A program made the translations under genes and the position numbers. Positions 1 through 8,639 of a stretch of DNA of 64,000 nt are shown piece by piece. The stretch spans positions 1 through 64,000 of the forward strand of contig NZ_REFA01000006.1 in assembly GCF_003852705.1 (NCBI RefSeq), given 5' to 3'. Under the pieces are notes generated by a model. The model made no database searches, was not told the origin of the DNA, and was given only the letters and a program-made list of their open reading frames with translations. Within the stretch, counting starts at the first letter, position 1. Every line of letters begins with the position of its first letter. The stretch is from Amniculibacterium aquaticum (lineage in GTDB: Bacteria > Bacteroidota > Bacteroidia > Flavobacteriales > Weeksellaceae).

Positions 1-110
1 ATGTATTTAGGTTGTCCTTCGGTTCTGTTTTCATCCACTGGAACAAATTTTAGGGTATTGTCTTTGCGGCTCATGCGGCCGGGATTGAAGAGATAATAGG
101 ATTTTTTCAT
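1..110 (-). CDS. cas1: Cas1 CRISPR integrase, N-terminal fragment
   Basis: Only the first 36 or so codons are inside the window; the gene runs off the left edge. The start ATG is at 110-108 on the minus strand. The translation begins MKKSYYLFNPGRMSRKDN, the characteristic opening of type I-B Cas1, the metal-dependent integrase that with Cas2 inserts new spacers into the CRISPR array. It is the last gene visible in the cas operon and follows cas4 in the usual order, but the two are separated by a four-helix-bundle gene and two repeat arrays. Its start codon lies 4 nt beyond the end of the left array, so its ribosome-binding region is made of repeat DNA. Cas2 and the array are expected just outside the window. 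Confidence 0.85.
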   Translation of the reverse strand, partial: MKKSYYLFNPGRMSRKDNTLKFVPVDENRTEGQPKY

Positions 111-113
111 CTT

Positions 114-182
114 GTGATCTGTGATTTGGTGATCTGTGATCTGGTGATCTGTGATCTGGTGACTTAGTGATTTAGTGATTGG
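114..182. repeat. Left 7/8-nt tandem repeat array (GTGATCTG type)
   Basis: Nine consecutive units starting with GTGA begin at 114, 121, 129, 136, 144, 151, 159, 167 and 175, so the spacing alternates between 7 and 8 nt. The commonest unit is GTGATCTG; the last three are GTGACTTA, GTGATTTA and GTGATTGG. The array fills the gap between cas1 and the four-helix-bundle gene and supplies the last codons of that gene (Asn-His-stop is read from AATCACTAA). It is in inverted orientation relative to the array at 573-655. It is too short and has no spacers, so it is not a CRISPR array. Confidence 0.85.
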
Positions 183-540
183 CGGGTTTTAGTTTGCTTC
201 TGTAGGAAGACATGACTTTGAGGATTTCTTCTGATTCATTTCTCAATTCAAATAATTTTTCTTCTGCTGTAAAGCCACCATCAATAAGCATTTCTATCCA
301 AAATAAAGTTTCGTCTGCTTCTTCTACAACAATACAGAGTTTTGCATATTTTTCTTTTTCTGATCTTGCCCTACAAACTGCTCTATAATTAGCCGCAACA
401 GAGGTAACCGACCGGATTAATTGTTTTCTAATAATGCTCAAAGCATCACTGTAATTAATTTCGGAGACAATTGTAATAATATCTAAGGCAAGTTTTTTAG
501 TTCTCGCTCGAAATAACTCATTAAATTCTTCTTGTTTCAT
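172..540 (-). CDS. Four helix bundle protein (23S rRNA intervening-sequence / bAvd-like family)
   Basis: A 122-residue, all-helical protein. The central segment with IRSVTSVAANYRA, then ARSEKEKYAKL and EEADETLFWIE, matches the signature of the PF05635 family. That family is encoded in intervening sequences of 23S rRNA genes and also includes the Avd accessory proteins of diversity-generating retroelements. Its members are small, basic and form pentameric helical bundles; their biochemical job outside retroelements is not established. Here there is no rRNA, reverse transcriptase or template/variable repeat nearby. The gene is in the same direction as the cas genes and is therefore probably transcribed with them. 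Its stop codon is formed by the flanking repeat array, which suggests that gene and repeats travel together. Confidence 0.8.
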   Translation of the reverse strand: MKQEEFNELFRARTKKLALDIITIVSEINYSDALSIIRKQLIRSVTSVAANYRAVCRARSEKEKYAKLCIVVEEADETLFWIEMLIDGGFTAEEKLFELRNESEEILKVMSSYRSKLKPANH

Positions 541-572: not shown

Positions 573-655
573 ACCCAATCACCCAATCACCCAATCACCC
601 GATCACTCCATCACTCAATCACCCATCACCCATCACCCATCACCAGATCACCCAT
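573..655. repeat. Right 7/8-nt tandem repeat array (CACCCAAT type)
   Basis: Ten TCAC-containing units begin at 579, 587, 595, 603, 611, 619, 626, 633, 640 and 648, giving steps of 8,8,8,8,8,7,7,7 and 8 nt. The first units read CACCCAAT; later ones are CATCACC. On the minus strand this is a GGGTGAT array, inverted relative to the array at 114-182. It starts at the cas4 stop codon (TGA at 657-655) and ends about 30 nt before the start of the four-helix-bundle gene. The last codons of cas4 already resemble the repeat, so its extreme C-terminus may have been rewritten by the array. Confidence 0.85.
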
Positions 656-1182
656 CATTCATTCACATAACAAAATTCGTAATAGCTACAGCTTTTGCAA
701 ATCTTGGCATTGATGACCGGTGGACAGGTTTCGTCTTCTTTTAATTTTTTTATTTCGAGAACGGTATTTTCCAAATATAGAATATCATCTTCAGTAAGTA
801 TCACTTCTTCTTTTTGTCGTAAAATAGGATATTCGATGACGCCTTTTTCAGCTTCAATTCCTTTCAGTTTCATCAGCCATAGATAAAATTTCACCTGCCA
901 GATATGGGCTTGCTCTACTTTGTTGCTTCGTTTGGTTTCGTGGATAATTTTATTTTTCACATCAAAGAAATCAATTTTTCCTACGAGATTCAATCCTTCA
1001 AAATCGACACTCAATTCGATTTGCTCATAGCGTTCCGGTCTTTGTAGATAAGTTTCATCTTCAATTAATTTTCCATCAGCTACCAAGTCGGAGGTTTGCT
1101 CCATATTGATACCGTTGGCAAAGAGCCAAAGTTTTCGCTTACAAATGCGGTAGTAGTTGATATGGGTGCCGGTAATGTTCAT
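655..1182 (-). CDS. cas4: Cas4 RecB-like 5'-3' exonuclease, CRISPR adaptation
   Basis: Cas4 trims prespacers and helps choose PAM-proximal ends during spacer acquisition with Cas1-Cas2. The 175-residue protein has the RecB nuclease residues D71 (in VGKIDFF), E82 and K84 (HETK) and the QxxxY motif Q96-Y100 (QVKFY). The cysteines for the iron-sulphur cluster are C14 near the N-terminus and C162, C165, C171 at the C-terminus. The ATG at 1182-1180 is chosen because MNITGTHINYYRICKRKLW is the normal Cas4 opening; an ATG nine codons upstream lies inside the preceding gene. The start overlaps the stop of the RAYT transposase as ATGA, so translation is probably coupled to that gene. The C-terminus abuts the repeat array at 573-655. 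Confidence 0.9.
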   Translation of the reverse strand: MNITGTHINYYRICKRKLWLFANGINMEQTSDLVADGKLIEDETYLQRPERYEQIELSVDFEGLNLVGKIDFFDVKNKIIHETKRSNKVEQAHIWQVKFYLWLMKLKGIEAEKGVIEYPILRQKEEVILTEDDILYLENTVLEIKKLKEDETCPPVINAKICKSCSYYEFCYVNE

Positions 1183-1793
1183 GGTTTGTGGAATTTGTCT
1201 TCTTTCCAATTTTTAGGATTATTGATGATATAATTTTCTATCCTGATATATTCATCATGATTTCGGATGATATGATCATGAAATTTAGATTGCCAACCGA
1301 AATCCAATTCCGGATAATCGATATGAATTTGTTTGGTGCATGCCGATTTGTAGGAACGAATAATGGTAGAAACCGAACCTGGTTTTGGTGAAATATCAGA
1401 CATGAATTGGTTAGGATTGGTAGATTCTGTGGGGTTGTTGCATTGGTTTGTGGAATCGTTGCATTGGTTTGTGGAATCGTTGTATTGCCCTGTGGAATCG
1501 TTGCATTGCAACGATTTTACAGAATCCACCAATAATATAATTCCATGCACATGATTGGGCATTACTACAAATTCACCCAAACGGACATGTGCAAAATGTT
1601 CGGGAATATCTGCCCAAAAATTATGAGCGATTATCCCATTTTCATTTAATTGCATTTCACCGTCCACAATTTCACCAAAATAATGTTCTCTATTTTTGGT
1701 ACAAATGGTGATGAAATAGGCACCCGGATTTCTGTAATCCCAATTTTTCAATCGGAAGGATTCAATGCGGTATTTATTTTTGAATAGGGTCAT
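1179..1793 (-). CDS. REP-associated tyrosine transposase (RAYT, Y1_Tnp superfamily)
   Basis: A 204-residue HUH single-strand transposase. The HUH histidines are H81 and H83 in MPNHVHGIILL, and the likely nucleophile is Y188 in ENYIINNP, within the typical block that begins WQSKFHDHIIR. RAYTs act on extragenic palindromes rather than moving as classical insertion sequences. The gene lies between cas7 and cas4 in the cas operon, in the same direction, and its TGA overlaps the cas4 ATG. Residues about 95-122 are a low-complexity spacer of seven-residue repeats (CNDSTNQ type) encoded by four 21-bp DNA repeats; this is absent from ordinary RAYTs and sits between the HUH and Tyr motifs. A matching palindrome lies upstream at 1848-1867. 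The frame looks intact, so the enzyme may be active. Confidence 0.85.
   Translation of the reverse strand: MTLFKNKYRIESFRLKNWDYRNPGAYFITICTKNREHYFGEIVDGEMQLNENGIIAHNFWADIPEHFAHVRLGEFVVMPNHVHGIILLVDSVKSLQCNDSTGQYNDSTNQCNDSTNQCNNPTESTNPNQFMSDISPKPGSVSTIIRSYKSACTKQIHIDYPELDFGWQSKFHDHIIRNHDEYIRIENYIINNPKNWKEDKFHKP
1429..1516. repeat. Four 21-bp repeats plus inverted repeat inside the RAYT coding sequence
   Basis: Units begin at 1429, 1450, 1471 and 1492, an exact 21-bp period (seven codons), so the RAYT frame is kept. The core is GTGGAATCGTTGCATTG. The fourth copy is followed by its reverse complement, giving AATCGTTGCA (1496-1505), one spacer base, and TGCAACGATT (1507-1516), a potential hairpin. 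The same AATCGTTGCA word occurs in the REP-like block upstream of the gene at 1808-1889. Confidence 0.85.
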
Positions 1794-1807: not shown

Positions 1808-1889
1808 TTTATTATTGTGGAATCGTTGCATGCATTTATTATTGTGGAATCGTTGCATGCAACGATTGTACTCATATTGCAACGATTCC
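1808..1889. repeat. REP-like palindromic repeats upstream of the RAYT gene
   Basis: A 27-bp sequence is present twice in tandem without mismatch (1808-1834 and 1835-1861). It contains GTGGAATCGTTGCATGCA. The second copy runs into a perfect 20-bp palindrome, AATCGTTGCATGCAACGATT at 1848-1867. A further inverted half, TGCAACGATTCC, is at 1878-1889. Such palindromes next to a RAYT gene are the expected substrate of the enzyme. The block fills most of the 122-bp gap between cas7 and the RAYT gene and may also affect the transcript by forming hairpins. Confidence 0.85.
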
Positions 1890-1915: not shown

Positions 1916-2971
1916 TTACAATTGTTTTTCAAAATCAAATGCCATAATTCTATCATACAATTCCTTTTCTGCCTTTTCTATGGCATCGGCAGTTTCTCCT
2001 TTGGTTTGGATGTAGCCACCTGCCTGTAAGGAAATATAGGTTTTAATGCCATTTAGATTTTCATCAATAATGGGTTGTGCTTTTCCAGAATCTTCCTCCG
2101 ATAATTTTGCTCGAATGCTCCCAGCAATCAGATTGGCATTATCCCCGATAGCGATGGCTAAGGTATCCATCAAGCTAAAAGTTCTGGATTGGTTAGAAGT
2201 AATTTTCCAATTGATAATGGCTTTAGCTAAAGCATCTGCCCATTTCTCTCTTAATTCTTTTGGAGCAACCAAACAAGGACCGAAAACATTCTTAGATTCA
2301 ATCCAACCATTAGCTTTTAATTTTTCTATGATTTCATCCGACATTTCAGGCTCAAATGAATTGAGGCTAACGCAAAATAATCTTCTTAAATCAATGGCAA
2401 TGTCGGATACAAATAACCCGGATGCACGACTTTGATTCGGAATCCATTTTCTGCTCAAGCTTCTATCTTTACCTTCCAAAAAAGCAGTGATTTCTTCTTC
2501 GGATAATTGATTCCCTTTCTCGTCACGAACAATAACCACATTATTTGGACGATCGCTTCGGTCAAAAGAAGCATTATCATTGTCCAGTCCGGCAAGTAGT
2601 GGGTGTAAGCCTCTCATTGCAGAAATAGACAACGGACTTCTTCTTTTTAAAGTTCTGTCTTTCCCTTCTTTTGTAGCTTTCATCCAGCCTCCAAATAGTT
2701 GGTCGGGATAAGTTGGGTCACAGGTTCCATAAACTTCTCCTTCTTTCAATTCCTTTTGTTTTGTTACATCAAAAAGAAAAGTAGTTGGACTTGGAGCCTC
2801 GCCTAAATGTTCTGAAATGCTATCCACAATAGAGCGTTTCACTTGTTGTCCACTTGAAAAAGGAATTCTTCTATTGAATTGTGCGTCATAATAATATTTC
2901 TGTCCATCGGATACGCAGAAAACGGTATGCTCTGCTCTTTTTAATGTTCTGATATAAATTGTATTGGTCAT
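1916..2971 (-). CDS. cas7: Cas7-family backbone subunit of type I-B Cascade
   Basis: Cas7 subunits polymerise along the crRNA and form the backbone of the Cascade surveillance complex. The 351-residue protein has the RRM-like start of the DevR/Cst2/Csp1-type Cas7 proteins (IYIRTLKRAEHTVF), followed by the RIPFSSGQQVKRSI segment typical of Cas7, where a Gly-Gln precedes a basic helix. The gene starts 25 bp after the cas8-like gene ends. The next cas gene, cas4, is separated by the REP block and the RAYT gene. Assignment to Cas7 is firm by motif and size; the exact subfamily (Cst2 versus Csp1/PGING-like) is not settled here. Confidence 0.8.
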   Translation of the reverse strand: MTNTIYIRTLKRAEHTVFCVSDGQKYYYDAQFNRRIPFSSGQQVKRSIVDSISEHLGEAPSPTTFLFDVTKQKELKEGEVYGTCDPTYPDQLFGGWMKATKEGKDRTLKRRSPLSISAMRGLHPLLAGLDNDNASFDRSDRPNNVVIVRDEKGNQLSEEEITAFLEGKDRSLSRKWIPNQSRASGLFVSDIAIDLRRLFCVSLNSFEPEMSDEIIEKLKANGWIESKNVFGPCLVAPKELREKWADALAKAIINWKITSNQSRTFSLMDTLAIAIGDNANLIAGSIRAKLSEEDSGKAQPIIDENLNGIKTYISLQAGGYIQTKGETADAIEKAEKELYDRIMAFDFEKQL

Positions 2972-2996: not shown

Positions 2997-4313
2997 TTAA
3001 GATTGTTTTTCTGTAAAGGCATAATCGAATTTCAGTAAGGTGTTGAAATAACCAAATTCTTCATTGGTCATCAAGTGCACTTCATCCCGAAGTTTTTTCA
3101 ATGCTTCCAAGTCGGATGGTTCCACGCCTGAAACCATTTCGGTAAGGGAATCAATAAATCCTTTTTTGGATTTACTTCCTAAAAGGTCGTTACTAATGAG
3201 GTTCCTTCTATCTGTCTTTGTAGAGCCTCCTCTATACCGGTGAAGTAGCTGAGCCAGTTCGCTGGTATAGTCTGTGATTTCTTCTTTGTTTTTTGTTATC
3301 ATAGCGATTAACCAAGTTTTATATGATTGATAAATTAAATTGTCTTCTTCTTTTTTGAAGGATAAATTCTTATCCTCTGTCATGTATTTTTTTAAATTCT
3401 CCGGGCGAAGTGCTTGTAGCCCAATACTTCCCAACTCGCAAGCTCTTTTGATATGCATACCAAATAAGGCTTGAAAATCTTTGTTGTTAAATTCCTGTTC
3501 TGAATGAAATAGTTGTTTGAACACATCTTTTAATCTTTTACCTGCTTTAAGGTAAATAGGAATGAAACCAATGGTTTTGTTGGTTTGACCGAAGGAATAG
3601 ATGTAAGTATTCAAGGTTTTATCCGGATAGAAATTTGAAAGACTGAAAAATAAATTTGACCAATTTACCGTATTCACTTCTGCCGCGGTTGTTTCTACTT
3701 TGAAAATCTTCTCCATTTCTAAAGTAGAAAAATCAAAGTTTGGATTATAGTCCTTCCCTAATTTATAGGTCAGCCATTGTCCGTTCCACGAGTTAATTTG
3801 GTTTCCCCTCAGTTTCTGCAAGGTGGGGTCATTTAAATACTTTCGGTAATATTTCCAACCCTCAAAAGTTTCTAATGTGATTTGGGCATCATTTATGAGC
3901 AAGCTGTAACCACCTGCTACACCAATTCCCAAACCCGAACCTATCCATGAATAATAAATATCTTCTTTTTCGGTTTCAATTTCTATATCTGATACTAGGC
4001 CTGAAGTACTGGCATATTCTTTACTCTCAGAAGCCGGATACCCTAAAGCAAAACTGGCATCAGCACTATCATTTTCCACTTTCTCAAAAAGATTTTCGAG
4101 TTTTTCTTTTCTTTCTAAAACCGAAATCGTTTCAACCTTTTGTCCTGTTTTCATTTGCACAAAAGGCGAATTCGTTACCCATTGCATATACTTTGGATGA
4201 TTAAAAAATAATTCAAAATACACCTCCTCAAAGAATTCTTTTGCTGAATAATCTTTGCTATATTTCTTGTTGTAGGCCTTTAAAAATGTTTTTCCTATTA
4301 CTGTCGTTATCAT
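2997..4313 (-). CDS. Putative Cas8-type large subunit of type I-B Cascade
   Basis: A 438-residue protein with no catalytic motif that I can recognise. It is assigned as the large subunit by position: it lies between cas3 and cas7 in an otherwise complete type I-B set that lacks any other Cas8 candidate, and Cas8 proteins are highly divergent. Cas8 normally reads the PAM and helps to open the target DNA. A Gly-rich stretch (WIGSGLGIGVAGGY) lies near residue 128. The ATG overlaps the cas3 stop codon as ATGA, which points to translational coupling. A profile search against the Cas8b1/Cst1 and Csp2 families would settle the name. Confidence 0.6.
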   Translation of the reverse strand: MITTVIGKTFLKAYNKKYSKDYSAKEFFEEVYFELFFNHPKYMQWVTNSPFVQMKTGQKVETISVLERKEKLENLFEKVENDSADASFALGYPASESKEYASTSGLVSDIEIETEKEDIYYSWIGSGLGIGVAGGYSLLINDAQITLETFEGWKYYRKYLNDPTLQKLRGNQINSWNGQWLTYKLGKDYNPNFDFSTLEMEKIFKVETTAAEVNTVNWSNLFFSLSNFYPDKTLNTYIYSFGQTNKTIGFIPIYLKAGKRLKDVFKQLFHSEQEFNNKDFQALFGMHIKRACELGSIGLQALRPENLKKYMTEDKNLSFKKEEDNLIYQSYKTWLIAMITKNKEEITDYTSELAQLLHRYRGGSTKTDRRNLISNDLLGSKSKKGFIDSLTEMVSGVEPSDLEALKKLRDEVHLMTNEEFGYFNTLLKFDYAFTEKQS

Positions 4314-6454
4314 AAGAACCGATTTAAAACATTAAAATTTTCTTCTTTAATTTTTGATTGATCCAATCCCGTTTCAAAATCACAAGCCGCATCCGGAATG
4401 ATAAACGGCTTATTCCCTTTTTGAGATTGATTCATCTTTGCAACTACCCAATAAGCCACCGGAATTTCAAGGAGCAATCGTGTTTCGAAATTGCCATTTT
4501 CATATTCTTCCACATCCGATTCCAAGATGCAACTCACACTATCAATTTCCAGTAGTTCAAATAATATTGCTTTACTACGGTGCATGAGTTTACCCATTGT
4601 AAATTGTCCGTTAGGTTTAAAAACACTATGCTCTTCAATCTTTAAAAATTCGATTTCGGTAAATACCTGGTCAATTTTGTTTTGCAAATCTCTTTCGTGT
4701 AAAGGCTTATTGTCTTCCAGCACTTCAAATGATTTTTGAAGAATAGACAGATTGTAGGGTCTGGCTTCTTTTTCGGTTTCAGGAGGTGCAATCACATACA
4801 CATCCTTTAATTTCCCAATGGTGTTTGTATTTCGCTTTCTGTTAATGCGTCCAAATCGTTGAATCATTGCATCCAAAGGAGCTGTGGCTGTTATCATGAC
4901 ATCGAAACTAATATCCAAACTCACTTCCACAATTTGTGTCGAAACCACGATACAGGCTTCATTACTCGTATTGTACTCATTAGTAGCAACACCATTTTCG
5001 TCTAAGCCTAATAATTGTCTTTCTTTTAAATTCCGGTCGCCTCGCCTAAACTTGCTATGTAACAGCATTGATGTGGTTTCAGGATAGGCCTCTTGAATAA
5101 ACTGAAATACCTCTTGAGATTTTTTAACCGTATTCATCACAATCAATATTTTCTGATTGTTCTGAACGGCATTGTCTATGATTGCTGAAGCCTCTTCAAA
5201 TGAAGATATTTTATGAACGATGTGCCGGTCGAATTGATTCAATTCTTCTTCATTTAATTTAATTTCTAACACATCATCCCCCAAAAGCTGAACTATCTTG
5301 TTGTACAAAATGGTTGGCATGGTTGCTGTTCCAATATGAATCCGACAATCGAGCGTTTTCAAAACTTCAATGAGCTTCAAAATCAAAGCTTGAGAAACTC
5401 CTGAATAAGTATGTACCTCGTCCAAAATCACATCACAGCCTTTGATATCCAAAATCATGGCTTCGAAACCTTTCATTCCTAAGGCAATATTCGCCAATTG
5501 GTGAGGAGTTAATATTTCGATTGCTGAACCTATCAATCCTTGCAATGCTGTTTCTTCCTCCTTTTTTCTCTTTACAATAATAGAAGTGGAGTGGAGCACG
5601 CGAATATCTATATCCGGATTGTCTTTTTCTAAATCGTTGCCTACCCGCTTAAACATTGCATTAATAGAAGCCTGAAAAGGTAAAGTGTAAAAGACTCTTC
5701 CTTTACATCTTCTAAAAAGGTAGTCTGTTTTCCCTGCTCCAGTGCTGGCAACTACGATGGTATGTTTCTTATCTGAAATTGCATTTTTTAGCGATAGAGG
5801 ATAAAGTTCATTCTGCCGATTATAAAAGTTAAGATTAGGTGTTTTGAATATTCTTTGGATTTCCTTTTCGGTTTTGTCAATTAATGAGGAGGCAAAATGG
5901 TCGGCTCCCATTAATAAGCCCCGCCATTCGGAATAGTTATTTTCTTTAACTGCTCTTTCACTATAGTCAATACAATATTCCAAATTCCGGATTGCCTCTT
6001 CCTTTGAAATCGGCTTTACTCCAATTTCCAATTCTTTCAGAATATCTAACGCTTTTGGATACCAATCTTCCCAATTACCTAAATGAAAATCCTGATAGTC
6101 ATAAGCTTCCTCCAAATCTAAAAGACCTTTCTCCCCAATATCGTTTTTTACAGATTTATGATGAGCGACCACCATTTCAATCAAATAATTCCAATGTTCT
6201 TTTGGAAAAACCGAAAGAAAAAATAGAGATGCTATTTCATGACGGAATATTTTTTTACTGTTTGATTTGCCCTTTAATCTTTCCTGAAAATAAGGGTGTG
6301 CTTTTCCAATATCATGAAGGATGGCTCCGTTCCGTGCAATCTTCTCATTCATGCCAAGATAGCTTGCAAAAGCTACAACGACCTCACCCACCTGTTTCAA
6401 GTGAGCAGGCAAAGTTGTCCATTCTGGTCCTGATTTTGCAAATAGCTTTTCCAT
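4310..6454 (-). CDS. cas3: Cas3 HD nuclease-helicase
   Basis: Cas3 is recruited by Cascade and degrades target DNA while unwinding it. The 714-residue protein is a full fusion of an N-terminal HD nuclease and a superfamily 2 helicase. HD residues visible are H18, H47-D48, H72 and H98/H99. Helicase motifs are Walker A STGAGKT (237-243), DEVH (345-348), motif III GTATMP (375-380) and motif VI QRFGRINR (532-539). All key residues are present, so interference activity is plausible. The gene starts 1 nt after cas5 ends and overlaps the next gene by 4 nt, consistent with one tight transcript. Confidence 0.93.
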   Translation of the reverse strand: MEKLFAKSGPEWTTLPAHLKQVGEVVVAFASYLGMNEKIARNGAILHDIGKAHPYFQERLKGKSNSKKIFRHEIASLFFLSVFPKEHWNYLIEMVVAHHKSVKNDIGEKGLLDLEEAYDYQDFHLGNWEDWYPKALDILKELEIGVKPISKEEAIRNLEYCIDYSERAVKENNYSEWRGLLMGADHFASSLIDKTEKEIQRIFKTPNLNFYNRQNELYPLSLKNAISDKKHTIVVASTGAGKTDYLFRRCKGRVFYTLPFQASINAMFKRVGNDLEKDNPDIDIRVLHSTSIIVKRKKEEETALQGLIGSAIEILTPHQLANIALGMKGFEAMILDIKGCDVILDEVHTYSGVSQALILKLIEVLKTLDCRIHIGTATMPTILYNKIVQLLGDDVLEIKLNEEELNQFDRHIVHKISSFEEASAIIDNAVQNNQKILIVMNTVKKSQEVFQFIQEAYPETTSMLLHSKFRRGDRNLKERQLLGLDENGVATNEYNTSNEACIVVSTQIVEVSLDISFDVMITATAPLDAMIQRFGRINRKRNTNTIGKLKDVYVIAPPETEKEARPYNLSILQKSFEVLEDNKPLHERDLQNKIDQVFTEIEFLKIEEHSVFKPNGQFTMGKLMHRSKAILFELLEIDSVSCILESDVEEYENGNFETRLLLEIPVAYWVVAKMNQSQKGNKPFIIPDAACDFETGLDQSKIKEENFNVLNRFL

Positions 6455-6455
6455 T

Positions 6456-7040
6456 TTAATAAGTTTTTACCGGAGTTCCAACAATCTTAATCCAACCAAA
6501 CATAGGCTCATTATTCAGACGGTTATATCCAACTAAAAATGACTGTTCATTCTTTTCAAAAACAAGCTCGTAACCGGAAAAAACTTCGTCTTTATTAAAC
6601 TCTTCAATAGAAGCCTCTTTTATCTCCTCAGGATATAGGATATCTTCATTTCTGCACAAACAGATATGTTGTGTTGCTGCTCTATCGGCATCTTCTTTAT
6701 TGGAAAAAGCAAAGTGCAAAACTGGTTCTAAAAGAATTCCTCTTGTAAGCACAGCTGTCGGTCGCTCAAATAGAAACTGTTTTCCTTTTTTCGTAGAATT
6801 CCACCCTCTGGTTTGAATTACTTCTTGTTGTTGGCTGACTTGGGTATAAGAAAGTCGATGGCCTACAATTTTTTTAATCCCATTTTCATTTAATAATTCA
6901 GGAAATAATTTTTTCTCAATTCCCTCAACTATGGATGGTGTAAGAAATTGTTGTGAGAATGTTTCGCTATCGCGTACGGCTGTCCACGGTTTAATAAACC
7001 CAAACTGTCCGGTATATTTTACGACAAATAAATTTTCCAT
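6456..7040 (-). CDS. cas5: Cas5 subunit of type I-B Cascade
   Basis: Cas5 caps the 5' handle of the crRNA in Cascade. The 194-residue protein opens with a beta strand (LFVVKYTGQFGFIKPW) and then LTPSIVEGIEKKLF, matching the Cas5 pattern in which the conserved helix of the RAMP fold follows 'TPS...G'. It is small for a Cas5 but within range. It sits between cas6 (7 bp upstream) and cas3 (1 bp downstream). It contains no obvious catalytic histidine of the Cas5d type, as expected when a separate Cas6 does crRNA processing. Confidence 0.8.
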   Translation of the reverse strand: MENLFVVKYTGQFGFIKPWTAVRDSETFSQQFLTPSIVEGIEKKLFPELLNENGIKKIVGHRLSYTQVSQQQEVIQTRGWNSTKKGKQFLFERPTAVLTRGILLEPVLHFAFSNKEDADRAATQHICLCRNEDILYPEEIKEASIEEFNKDEVFSGYELVFEKNEQSFLVGYNRLNNEPMFGWIKIVGTPVKTY

Positions 7041-7047
7041 TTTGATG

Positions 7048-7707
7048 TTATTTTAAAGCTCCAAAACCAATACCGGTTGAATTTCCTAAGCCATTGTCCC
7101 ATGCAAAAGCAATCTGTTCTGGTGTGCCATTGATGATGATTGGTACAAATGAGGTTCTATTTTTGATACCTTTATAGGTTACCAATTTTGTTTCTTTGAA
7201 ATTTGTATTAGGATTAATTTTTATAGACAAACCTTCTGAATTTAAATGAGATTTTTCAAGCTTATGTTTCAGATTGTCCGTTAAAATTGTTTCAAAGTTT
7301 TTATCTTCCAAAGTTATATGACGAATTTTGTTTTCTACTTTCATTTTTAATAGAACAGGACTCGCCATCAGAAATTTTTCTGAAATTGAAAAAGCTGGAG
7401 TGTCTTTTATTTGAACATCAAAAACACTGACTCCACTAAACATTTCCGGATCTTTTAAAATATTTTTGACAATTTGCTTTACTAATCCCTCATTTATACT
7501 ACTGATGAAGAAGTAAGCATCTCTCTTCAACTCAATACCACTTTTGTTGGCTACTGTATTTTGAATCCAGGAAAATGAAAATTGACCAGTTTTTCCGTGA
7601 ATTTCATTGTTCGCTCCAATCCATTTATGAATGACTCCTGTTAACAATTCCTGATAATTAAAAGGAATTGGTTTGTTGTTTTTTGTGAGTTTTAAATATA
7701 TTCTCAT
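7048..7707 (-). CDS. cas6: Cas6 crRNA-processing endoribonuclease
   Basis: Cas6 cleaves the pre-crRNA within each repeat. The 219-residue protein shows the RAMP ferredoxin-like N-terminus (MRIYLKLTKNNKPIPFNYQ), a candidate catalytic His at residue 27 (GVIHKWIG), and the glycine-rich C-terminal loop GLGNSTGIGFGALK that marks Cas6. It is the first structural gene of the operon. A -7 box (TAACTTTG on the minus strand, 7737-7730) lies 23 nt upstream of the ATG, so the cas operon probably has its own promoter here rather than depending only on read-through from the WYL gene. Confidence 0.88.
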   Translation of the reverse strand: MRIYLKLTKNNKPIPFNYQELLTGVIHKWIGANNEIHGKTGQFSFSWIQNTVANKSGIELKRDAYFFISSINEGLVKQIVKNILKDPEMFSGVSVFDVQIKDTPAFSISEKFLMASPVLLKMKVENKIRHITLEDKNFETILTDNLKHKLEKSHLNSEGLSIKINPNTNFKETKLVTYKGIKNRTSFVPIIINGTPEQIAFAWDNGLGNSTGIGFGALK

Positions 7708-7729: not shown

Positions 7730-7765
7730 CAAAGTTAATATTCATTACTGACAAAATATGTCAAA
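7730..7765 (-). promoter_or_regulatory. Putative cas operon promoter with an overlapping palindrome
   Basis: On the minus strand TAACTTTG (7737-7730) fits the Bacteroidota -7 consensus TAnnTTTG. Two TTTG words at 7765-7762 and 7755-7752 are candidates for the upstream -33 element. Between them and the -7 box lies the inverted repeat TGACA-AAATA-TGTCA (7749-7763), which also covers the stop codon of the WYL regulator. A palindrome in this place is a natural operator, and the WYL protein is the obvious candidate ligand; this is inference. Confidence 0.5.
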
Positions 7766-8639
7766 AATTTAAAGATTTAAATTTTTCTTTAATAAATGTT
7801 TTGAAAGTCTCTGGGGAAATGATTTTTATTTCATCGGAAAGTCCCATTACAAAGCGGCCAATACCATGGAAATTGGCAATTGAGGTTTTTAAATGATAAA
7901 GATTTTCTCTTTCCGAAATATCTTTCACGGCTAATGGAAATTCTTCACGCAACAAATTATAGGCTTTTAGACTGAGTTGTAGTTCAACGATAGCAACTGG
8001 CTTTTTTGCAGACATTTTAAAGGCGTCAGTAAACGGAATTTTATGTTCGGATTGATGTTGCCAATTTTCATTTAGGATTTCTACCTTTTCAATCCTAGAA
8101 ATTTTAAACTGTTTTACCTGTTGGCTCTTTATTTCGTAACACCAAATGCCTTCATAATCTCCCATAAATTCAAAAGGTTCTACTATTCTGTCTTCTATAT
8201 TACTGCTGTTGGAAGAGCGGTAGCCGAGTAGGTTAACTTTTGTTTTCTTCTGAATAGCTTCGTTTAAATCTTGAATAATTTTTAGTTGTTGTGTATTTTC
8301 TAATTTAGAAATCACATTAAAGTCATATAGAAAATTGAGTTTTTTTAATAATTTCTCCTTTACTGAGGAGCTGCTTTTTTGTGCTTCCAGAATTTGATGA
8401 ATAAGAAAAATCTCTTCTTCCGAAAAGTGGAATAACTTTTTTAAGGTTTTTGTTTCTGGGTGATTAGGTATTAATCGATATCTACCTTGTTTTTTTTCCA
8501 ATGCAAAACCGGCATTTTTTATTTTATTAAAATGGCGATAAACGGTTCGTTCATCGATAGAAAATTTTATGGCTATTTCTGGTACGCTATAATTCCGCGT
8601 TCCATTGAGTAACATCAGTAGTTTTAAAGTTTTTTCCAT
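7761..8639 (-). CDS. WYL-domain transcriptional regulator of the cas operon
   Basis: A 292-residue DNA-binding protein. Residues 1-57 form a DeoR/HTH_11-type winged helix (VPEIAIKFSIDERTVYRHFNKI), and residues about 135-195 form a WYL domain ending in the typical FKISRIEKVEIL. The WYL segment reads GIWCYEI, a variation of the usual W-Y-L triad. WYL proteins are common regulators of CRISPR-Cas and other defence loci and are thought to sense nucleic-acid ligands. The gene lies directly upstream of cas6 with a 53-bp gap and the same direction. It could repress or activate the cas promoter at 7730-7765. Confidence 0.85.
   Translation of the reverse strand: MEKTLKLLMLLNGTRNYSVPEIAIKFSIDERTVYRHFNKIKNAGFALEKKQGRYRLIPNHPETKTLKKLFHFSEEEIFLIHQILEAQKSSSSVKEKLLKKLNFLYDFNVISKLENTQQLKIIQDLNEAIQKKTKVNLLGYRSSNSSNIEDRIVEPFEFMGDYEGIWCYEIKSQQVKQFKISRIEKVEILNENWQHQSEHKIPFTDAFKMSAKKPVAIVELQLSLKAYNLLREEFPLAVKDISERENLYHLKTSIANFHGIGRFVMGLSDEIKIISPETFKTFIKEKFKSLNF

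Follow-up and report, generated by a model that had tools for sequence, protein, structure and literature searches.

In Amniculibacterium aquaticum, a RAYT (TnpA-REP) gene separates cas7 from cas4 in a type I-B CRISPR-Cas operon, and its stop codon is built into the start codon of cas4. Across Bacteroidota, related genes recur beside cas4 in other type I-B loci and, on a larger scale, within restriction-modification (R-M) operons. With moderate confidence, we propose that RAYT-REP units repeatedly lodge as guests in accessory slots of defence operons, where they are kept when translation of the next gene is preserved. The analysis started from the first 64 kb of contig NZ_REFA01000006.1; this whole stretch of 64,000 nucleotides is called the window, and loci used for comparison carry L numbers.

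The RAYT gene and its junction with cas4

PADLOC assigned the cas operon of the window to type I-B. Its genes are all on the minus strand, in the order cas6b (7048..7707), cas5b (6456..7040), cas3 (4310..6454), cas8b (2997..4313), cas7b (1916..2971), cas4b (655..1182; 175 aa) and the start of cas1 (1..110). The contig ends inside cas1, so that cas2 and the CRISPR array are outside the visible sequence. An HTH-WYL regulator gene (7761..8639, minus strand; HTH_11 above the cut-off, WYL just below it) is found upstream of the operon. The RAYT gene (1179..1793, minus strand) is an ORF of 204 aa recognized by its HUH and Tyr motifs, a profile match and its predicted fold. A sequence-only reading of this DNA had placed it between cas7 and cas4, in the cas direction and with ATGA coupling to cas4. 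This was confirmed, with cas7b upstream and cas4b downstream. The RAYT stop TGA and the cas4 start ATG share a 4-nt overlap, ATGA (1179..1182, minus strand), and the reverse strand at the junction reads ...CAC AAA CCA TGA / ATG AAC ATT.... The overlap makes it plausible that Cas4 synthesis depends on translation of the RAYT, as had been suggested. A second guest, a gene for an S23 four-helix-bundle protein (172..540, minus strand), is located between cas4 and cas1. It is bordered by minisatellites at 109-178 and 572-654, whose units are the 15-nt ATCTGGTGATCTGTG and the 8-nt CACCCAAT. S23-like genes are also present downstream of cas4 in L036, L040 and L077, and between hsdR and hsdS in L232.

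The window RAYT contains the HUH motif NHVH at residues 80-83, with H81 (codon 1553-1551, minus strand) and H83 (codon 1547-1545, minus strand). It also contains a WQ motif (W167 Q168) and YIINNP at residues 188-193, in which Tyr188 (codon 1232-1230, minus strand) is the catalytic tyrosine by motif. The match to Pfam Y1_Tnp (23.6 bits) is barely over the cut-off of 23. NCBIfam NF047646 (REP_Tyr_transpos) gave 50 bits, below its cut-off of 80; this model seems to be tuned to other RAYTs, since related subclasses score alike. The AlphaFold model (mean pLDDT 84.7) retrieved 2xm3, 4er8 and 2f4f in Foldseek with E values of about 1e-6 to 1e-5. The predicted protein thus has the HUH Y1 fold and resembles IS200/IS605 TnpA (ISDra2/IS608) and the RAYT-REP complex structure 4er8.

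TnpA-REP proteins of subclass 2.4 occur in Bacteroidetes at low copy, carry NH[IFV]H, WQ and YIxNNP with the catalytic tyrosine, and have as their unique feature a REP insertion within the gene (Quentin et al. 2018, PMC6006769). The window gene has all three motifs, is a single copy by genome search and contains a REP-like palindrome (1496..1516) within its ORF. A second one with a GT[AG]G foot, GTGG beside 1848-1867, is less than 1 kb away. Because of its motifs, low copy number and in-gene REP, the gene is, as judged by these features, an intact TnpA-REP of RAYT subclass 2.4, accompanied by REP palindromes of its own. Restriction and CRISPR are not mentioned in the paper on subclass 2.4; lodging in defence operons and fusion to a start codon are added here. 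The E. coli-type RAYT/REPtron (4er8) shares the HUH-Tyr fold and nearby REP-like palindromes with a GT[AG]G foot, but the window genome has no REP population, and there the gene is part of an operon and ends on the start codon of the gene that follows. IS200/IS605 elements (IS608, ISDra2) have the same transposase fold, whereas the window gene has RAYT-type motifs, is single copy and gives no sign of a multi-copy IS. Defined ends of an IS200/IS605 element were looked for around it and none was found, and no insertion boundary with target duplication was definable there.

The sequence-only reading had noted that the gene adds no untranslated ends of its own. This needs correcting, as a leader of 122 nt between cas7 and the RAYT contains REP-like palindromes (1848-1867 and extra arms). 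The leader palindrome AATCGTTGCATGCAACGATT (1848..1867, no strand assigned), which has the GTGG foot, belongs to a 27-nt direct repeat (1808-1861) made of its duplicated arms. The palindrome inside the ORF, likewise given no strand, adjoins a 21-nt tandem repeat (1437-1508) encoding NDSTNQC-like units. GGAATCGTTGCA is found here six times, where 0.37 occurrences would be expected in the window, and GTGGAATCGTTGCATGCAACGATT is a candidate single-stranded DNA for binding or nicking by the RAYT. The 18-mer core of the palindrome occurred once in a search of the genome and nowhere else in it, and no REP population maintained by the RAYT was found in this genome.

Empty sites and recurrence beside cas4

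We compared 80 loci with a related cas7, ranked by similarity. In most of those with a resolved cas4, this gene is close after cas7. The nearest cas7 relatives (L013, L015 and L034) have no RAYT, and in the guest-free loci L015, L029, L016 and L018 the gap between cas7 and cas4 is 40-60 bp, in several cases with a small hairpin. The cas4 start ATGAAC is found in the RAYT-free relatives L013, L015 and L029, and cas4 starts beginning with ATGA are common (19 of 61). ATGA thus pre-exists at the start of cas4, so the RAYT stop is supplied by cas4 and the fusion requires only an in-frame arrival. Since the nearest relatives are empty and the stop is cas4's own ATGA, the arrival of the window RAYT is, on this comparison, younger than the cas operon. 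Of the two origins offered earlier, a recent insertion at a start codon agrees with these results, as a later insertion at this locus. One close cas7 relative (77%; L003:2557-4041) is followed by a frame that by eye resembles a Cas10-type protein of type III, with no cas4 there.

The cas7-cas4 gap, which parts the effector from the adaptation module, is a general guest slot, with inserts of more than 300 bp in 25 of 60 loci. Frame inspection indicated Rpn-like nucleases, AAA ATPases, PIN toxins, AbiE-like, RhuM, Uma2, S23 and Schlafen-like proteins among the guests; Pfam confirmed one of the scanned gap guests only, a UPF0158 protein in L046.

RAYTs recur in this region. Of 62 loci that could be compared, 10, the window included, have cas4 flanked by an HUH/RAYT gene of one or other of two diverged types, which answers the earlier question whether related type I-B loci carry a RAYT upstream of cas4. 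Genes of the window clade are at the cas7-cas4 junction in Flectobacillus (L028), with the same ATGA, and at the cas4-cas1 junction in Epilithonimonas bovis (L014). The second, diverged RAYT-like type has NHFH and YIHNNP. It is found at cas7-cas4 in L045, L050 (ATGA again), L058 and L062, after cas7 in L073, where the contig stops short of cas4, at cas4-cas1 in L031, and after cas4 in L057, where the contig ends. The ATGA fusion is therefore common to three loci, the window, L028 and L050. Among the related loci other than the window, 9 of 11 HUH matches fall within the cas7-cas1 interval, which makes up about 10% of the sequence. On the cas7 tree, a RAYT at cas4 needs 9 changes, of which at least 7 are forced by well-supported branches. 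A single RAYT-cas4 unit inherited from an ancestor was rejected, because the nearest cas7 relatives are empty and the tree needs this number of changes. The presence of an HUH gene is also not conserved as expected for a component of the type I-B adaptation module, as most relatives are without it. The sequence-only reading had named two things that together would speak against it, close relatives without the RAYT at the same junction, with clean insertion boundaries, and no recurrence of the association. Empty relatives were found, but the association does recur.

RAYTs in restriction-modification operons

RAYT genes were sampled in 131 loci (order and phylum) and in a further class sample of 32, ranked by similarity to the query. 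Genes were simple ORF calls, many genomes were MAGs, and the R-M exemplars were drawn from RAYT loci. In this material, 23 of 131 RAYTs in the first sample and 9 of 32 in the second are in R-M or cas operons, or 32 of 163 subclass-2.4-like genes; the operons are type I R-M almost throughout. The HsdR, HsdM, HsdS and ResIII partners were confirmed by Pfam in the first sample, the labels in the second were obtained by BLAST to those, and some defence partners were also confirmed by PADLOC. The RAYT separates hsdS from hsdM or hsdR in L230, L232, L234 and L262, and Mod from Res in the type III system of L227. In L226 it is flanked by cas3 and cas6b, in another type I-B operon of a different kind. 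At one R-M locus, RAYT-free relatives (hsdR with 87% DNA identity) carry other genes before hsdR. Searches of open-licence papers brought up no description of a RAYT within an R-M or cas operon. A follow-up of the RAYT gave no match in viral contigs and one match in plasmids, away from defence genes. Three consecutive RAYT-like frames were seen in one type I R-M operon (L236:8376-9934).

This lodging differs from that of other mobile genes. Among the best-scoring loci of each control, many from the same genomes, none of 30 S23 genes and none of 30 DDE IS genes were in R-M or cas operons (p=2e-5 for RAYTs against these controls), and general mobile-gene noise in defence islands was rejected on these zero counts. 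There are about 2 hsdR genes per genome (155 in 80), so random adjacency of a RAYT and hsdR is expected well below 1%. A stop-start overlap with the downstream gene (-30 to 0) was observed in 13 of 27 defence pairs, compared to 4 of 69 other co-oriented pairs (p=6e-6).

The 24 genes labelled as defence-linked require 18 changes of this label on the RAYT tree, which indicates many separate captures. One supported set of five RAYTs is entirely in defence operons; it comprises the cas-linked genes of the window, L014, L028 and L128/L226 together with the type III gene of L122/L227. The sequence-only reading had also asked for conservation of the HUH and Tyr residues and for dN/dS. Among the relatives these residues are near-invariant, inside and outside defence operons alike, and dN/dS is 0.12-0.36 in all pairs measured, R-M-linked pairs included; these pairs are all of relatives of the window gene. 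The other origin considered earlier was a longer-term association with spacer acquisition. The recurrence beside cas4 supports the association but not its restriction to acquisition, because R-M operons of types I and III show the same lodging on a larger scale. A link specific to spacer acquisition was weakened by these guests, and the link of RAYTs, as the operon contents indicate, is to defence operons generally.

Guests or working parts of defence

We suggest the following course of events. A RAYT-REP unit would enter the cas7-cas4 gap, a slot open to many guests, by transposition or recombination. The RAYT ORF has no separate stop and reads on into the ATGA at the cas4 start, and ribosomes that finish the RAYT may then re-initiate on cas4, so that the adaptation genes stay expressed. 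Arrivals that are co-oriented and start-fused would persist and others be lost, as the excess of overlaps at defence genes suggests. The catalytic residues are kept and the family is under purifying selection, as seen in relatives, and the RAYT would travel and be expressed together with the defence operon. The R-M operons, those of type I as well as type III, likewise show repeated, independent lodging. That hsd and cas operons should be favoured over others is not explained by the proposal of a guest itself, and would be better accounted for by a benefit to defence.

Such a benefit would follow if the RAYT were a working part of defence, whose HUH endonuclease, expected to bind hairpins and cut single-stranded DNA, might process single-stranded DNA ends for Cas4-Cas1-Cas2 or serve as a guarded backup effector like PrrC. 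We consider this rather unlikely. It would fit the finding that CRISPR and R-M operons captured RAYTs repeatedly and independently, the position of the RAYT next to cas4 rather than other cas genes, the co-orientation and start fusion, and the supported clade of five genes all in defence operons. The near-invariant catalytic residues and the purifying selection in R-M-linked pairs are in agreement with it as well, but RAYTs with no link to a defence operon show both to the same degree. Some genes lodged within R-M systems are known to guard them (PMC12707154, PMC3874165). PrrC in EcoprrI, like the RAYT, is an extra gene acting on nucleic acid within a type I R-M operon (PMC3874165, PMC12707154); PrrC is a demonstrated anticodon nuclease guarded by the R-M complex, whereas a counterpart role of the RAYT would be a hypothesis by analogy. 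Most related operons, including the nearest relatives, are without a RAYT, and the gap also admits unrelated guests. Furthermore, L114 and L115 have hsdR homology after the RAYT with no long hsdR frame left, and their RAYT is intact. The guest RAYT seems here to outlive its host gene, which argues against a working part. It is doubtful that RAYTs are a recurrent accessory component of immunity in Bacteroidota, an HUH endonuclease recruited many times into CRISPR operons beside cas4 and into R-M operons that would assist adaptation, or provide a guarded backup, by acting on single-stranded ends or hairpins.

We know of no explanation for the benefit of RAYTs to their hosts. In the literature they figure as domesticated transposases that have been retained over millions of years (PMC8049555). 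If they do serve immunity, the long-unexplained host benefit of these domesticated genes would be supplied. Start-codon-precise lodging in defence operons offers either a hypothesis for this benefit or an example of a transposase lineage persisting as a passenger of immunity operons. "Transposase" genes in cas and hsd operons are not to be written off as random debris.

Lodging as recurrent guests is the reading that we prefer to two others. One chance insertion without wider meaning, with a coincidental fusion eased by the frequent ATGA starts of cas4, is improbable. The empty relatives, the proportion of ATGA starts and the single copy without a REP population are compatible with it, but the 9 further cas4-side loci and the many R-M operons, with controls at zero, disfavour it. 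It is very unlikely that the REP hairpins matter and not the protein, the leader palindromes tuning downstream transcription or translation with the RAYT as their carrier: an mRNA effect of REP hairpins has been proposed (PMC3733652), and hairpins are present in the window leader, as a long REP array upstream of the RAYT in L028, as palindromes at L014 and L226, and in the same gap of guest-free relatives, but no palindrome of the window kind was found at the HUH-gene loci L050 and L031, and in several R-M cases there is not much leader before the RAYT.

In L226, REP-like repeats (SLQCNDATGQCNDTT) encode an N-terminal extension of Cas6b (L226:7720-8480). These repeats run on from repeats inside the upstream RAYT gene, and palindromes have thus been made into protein.
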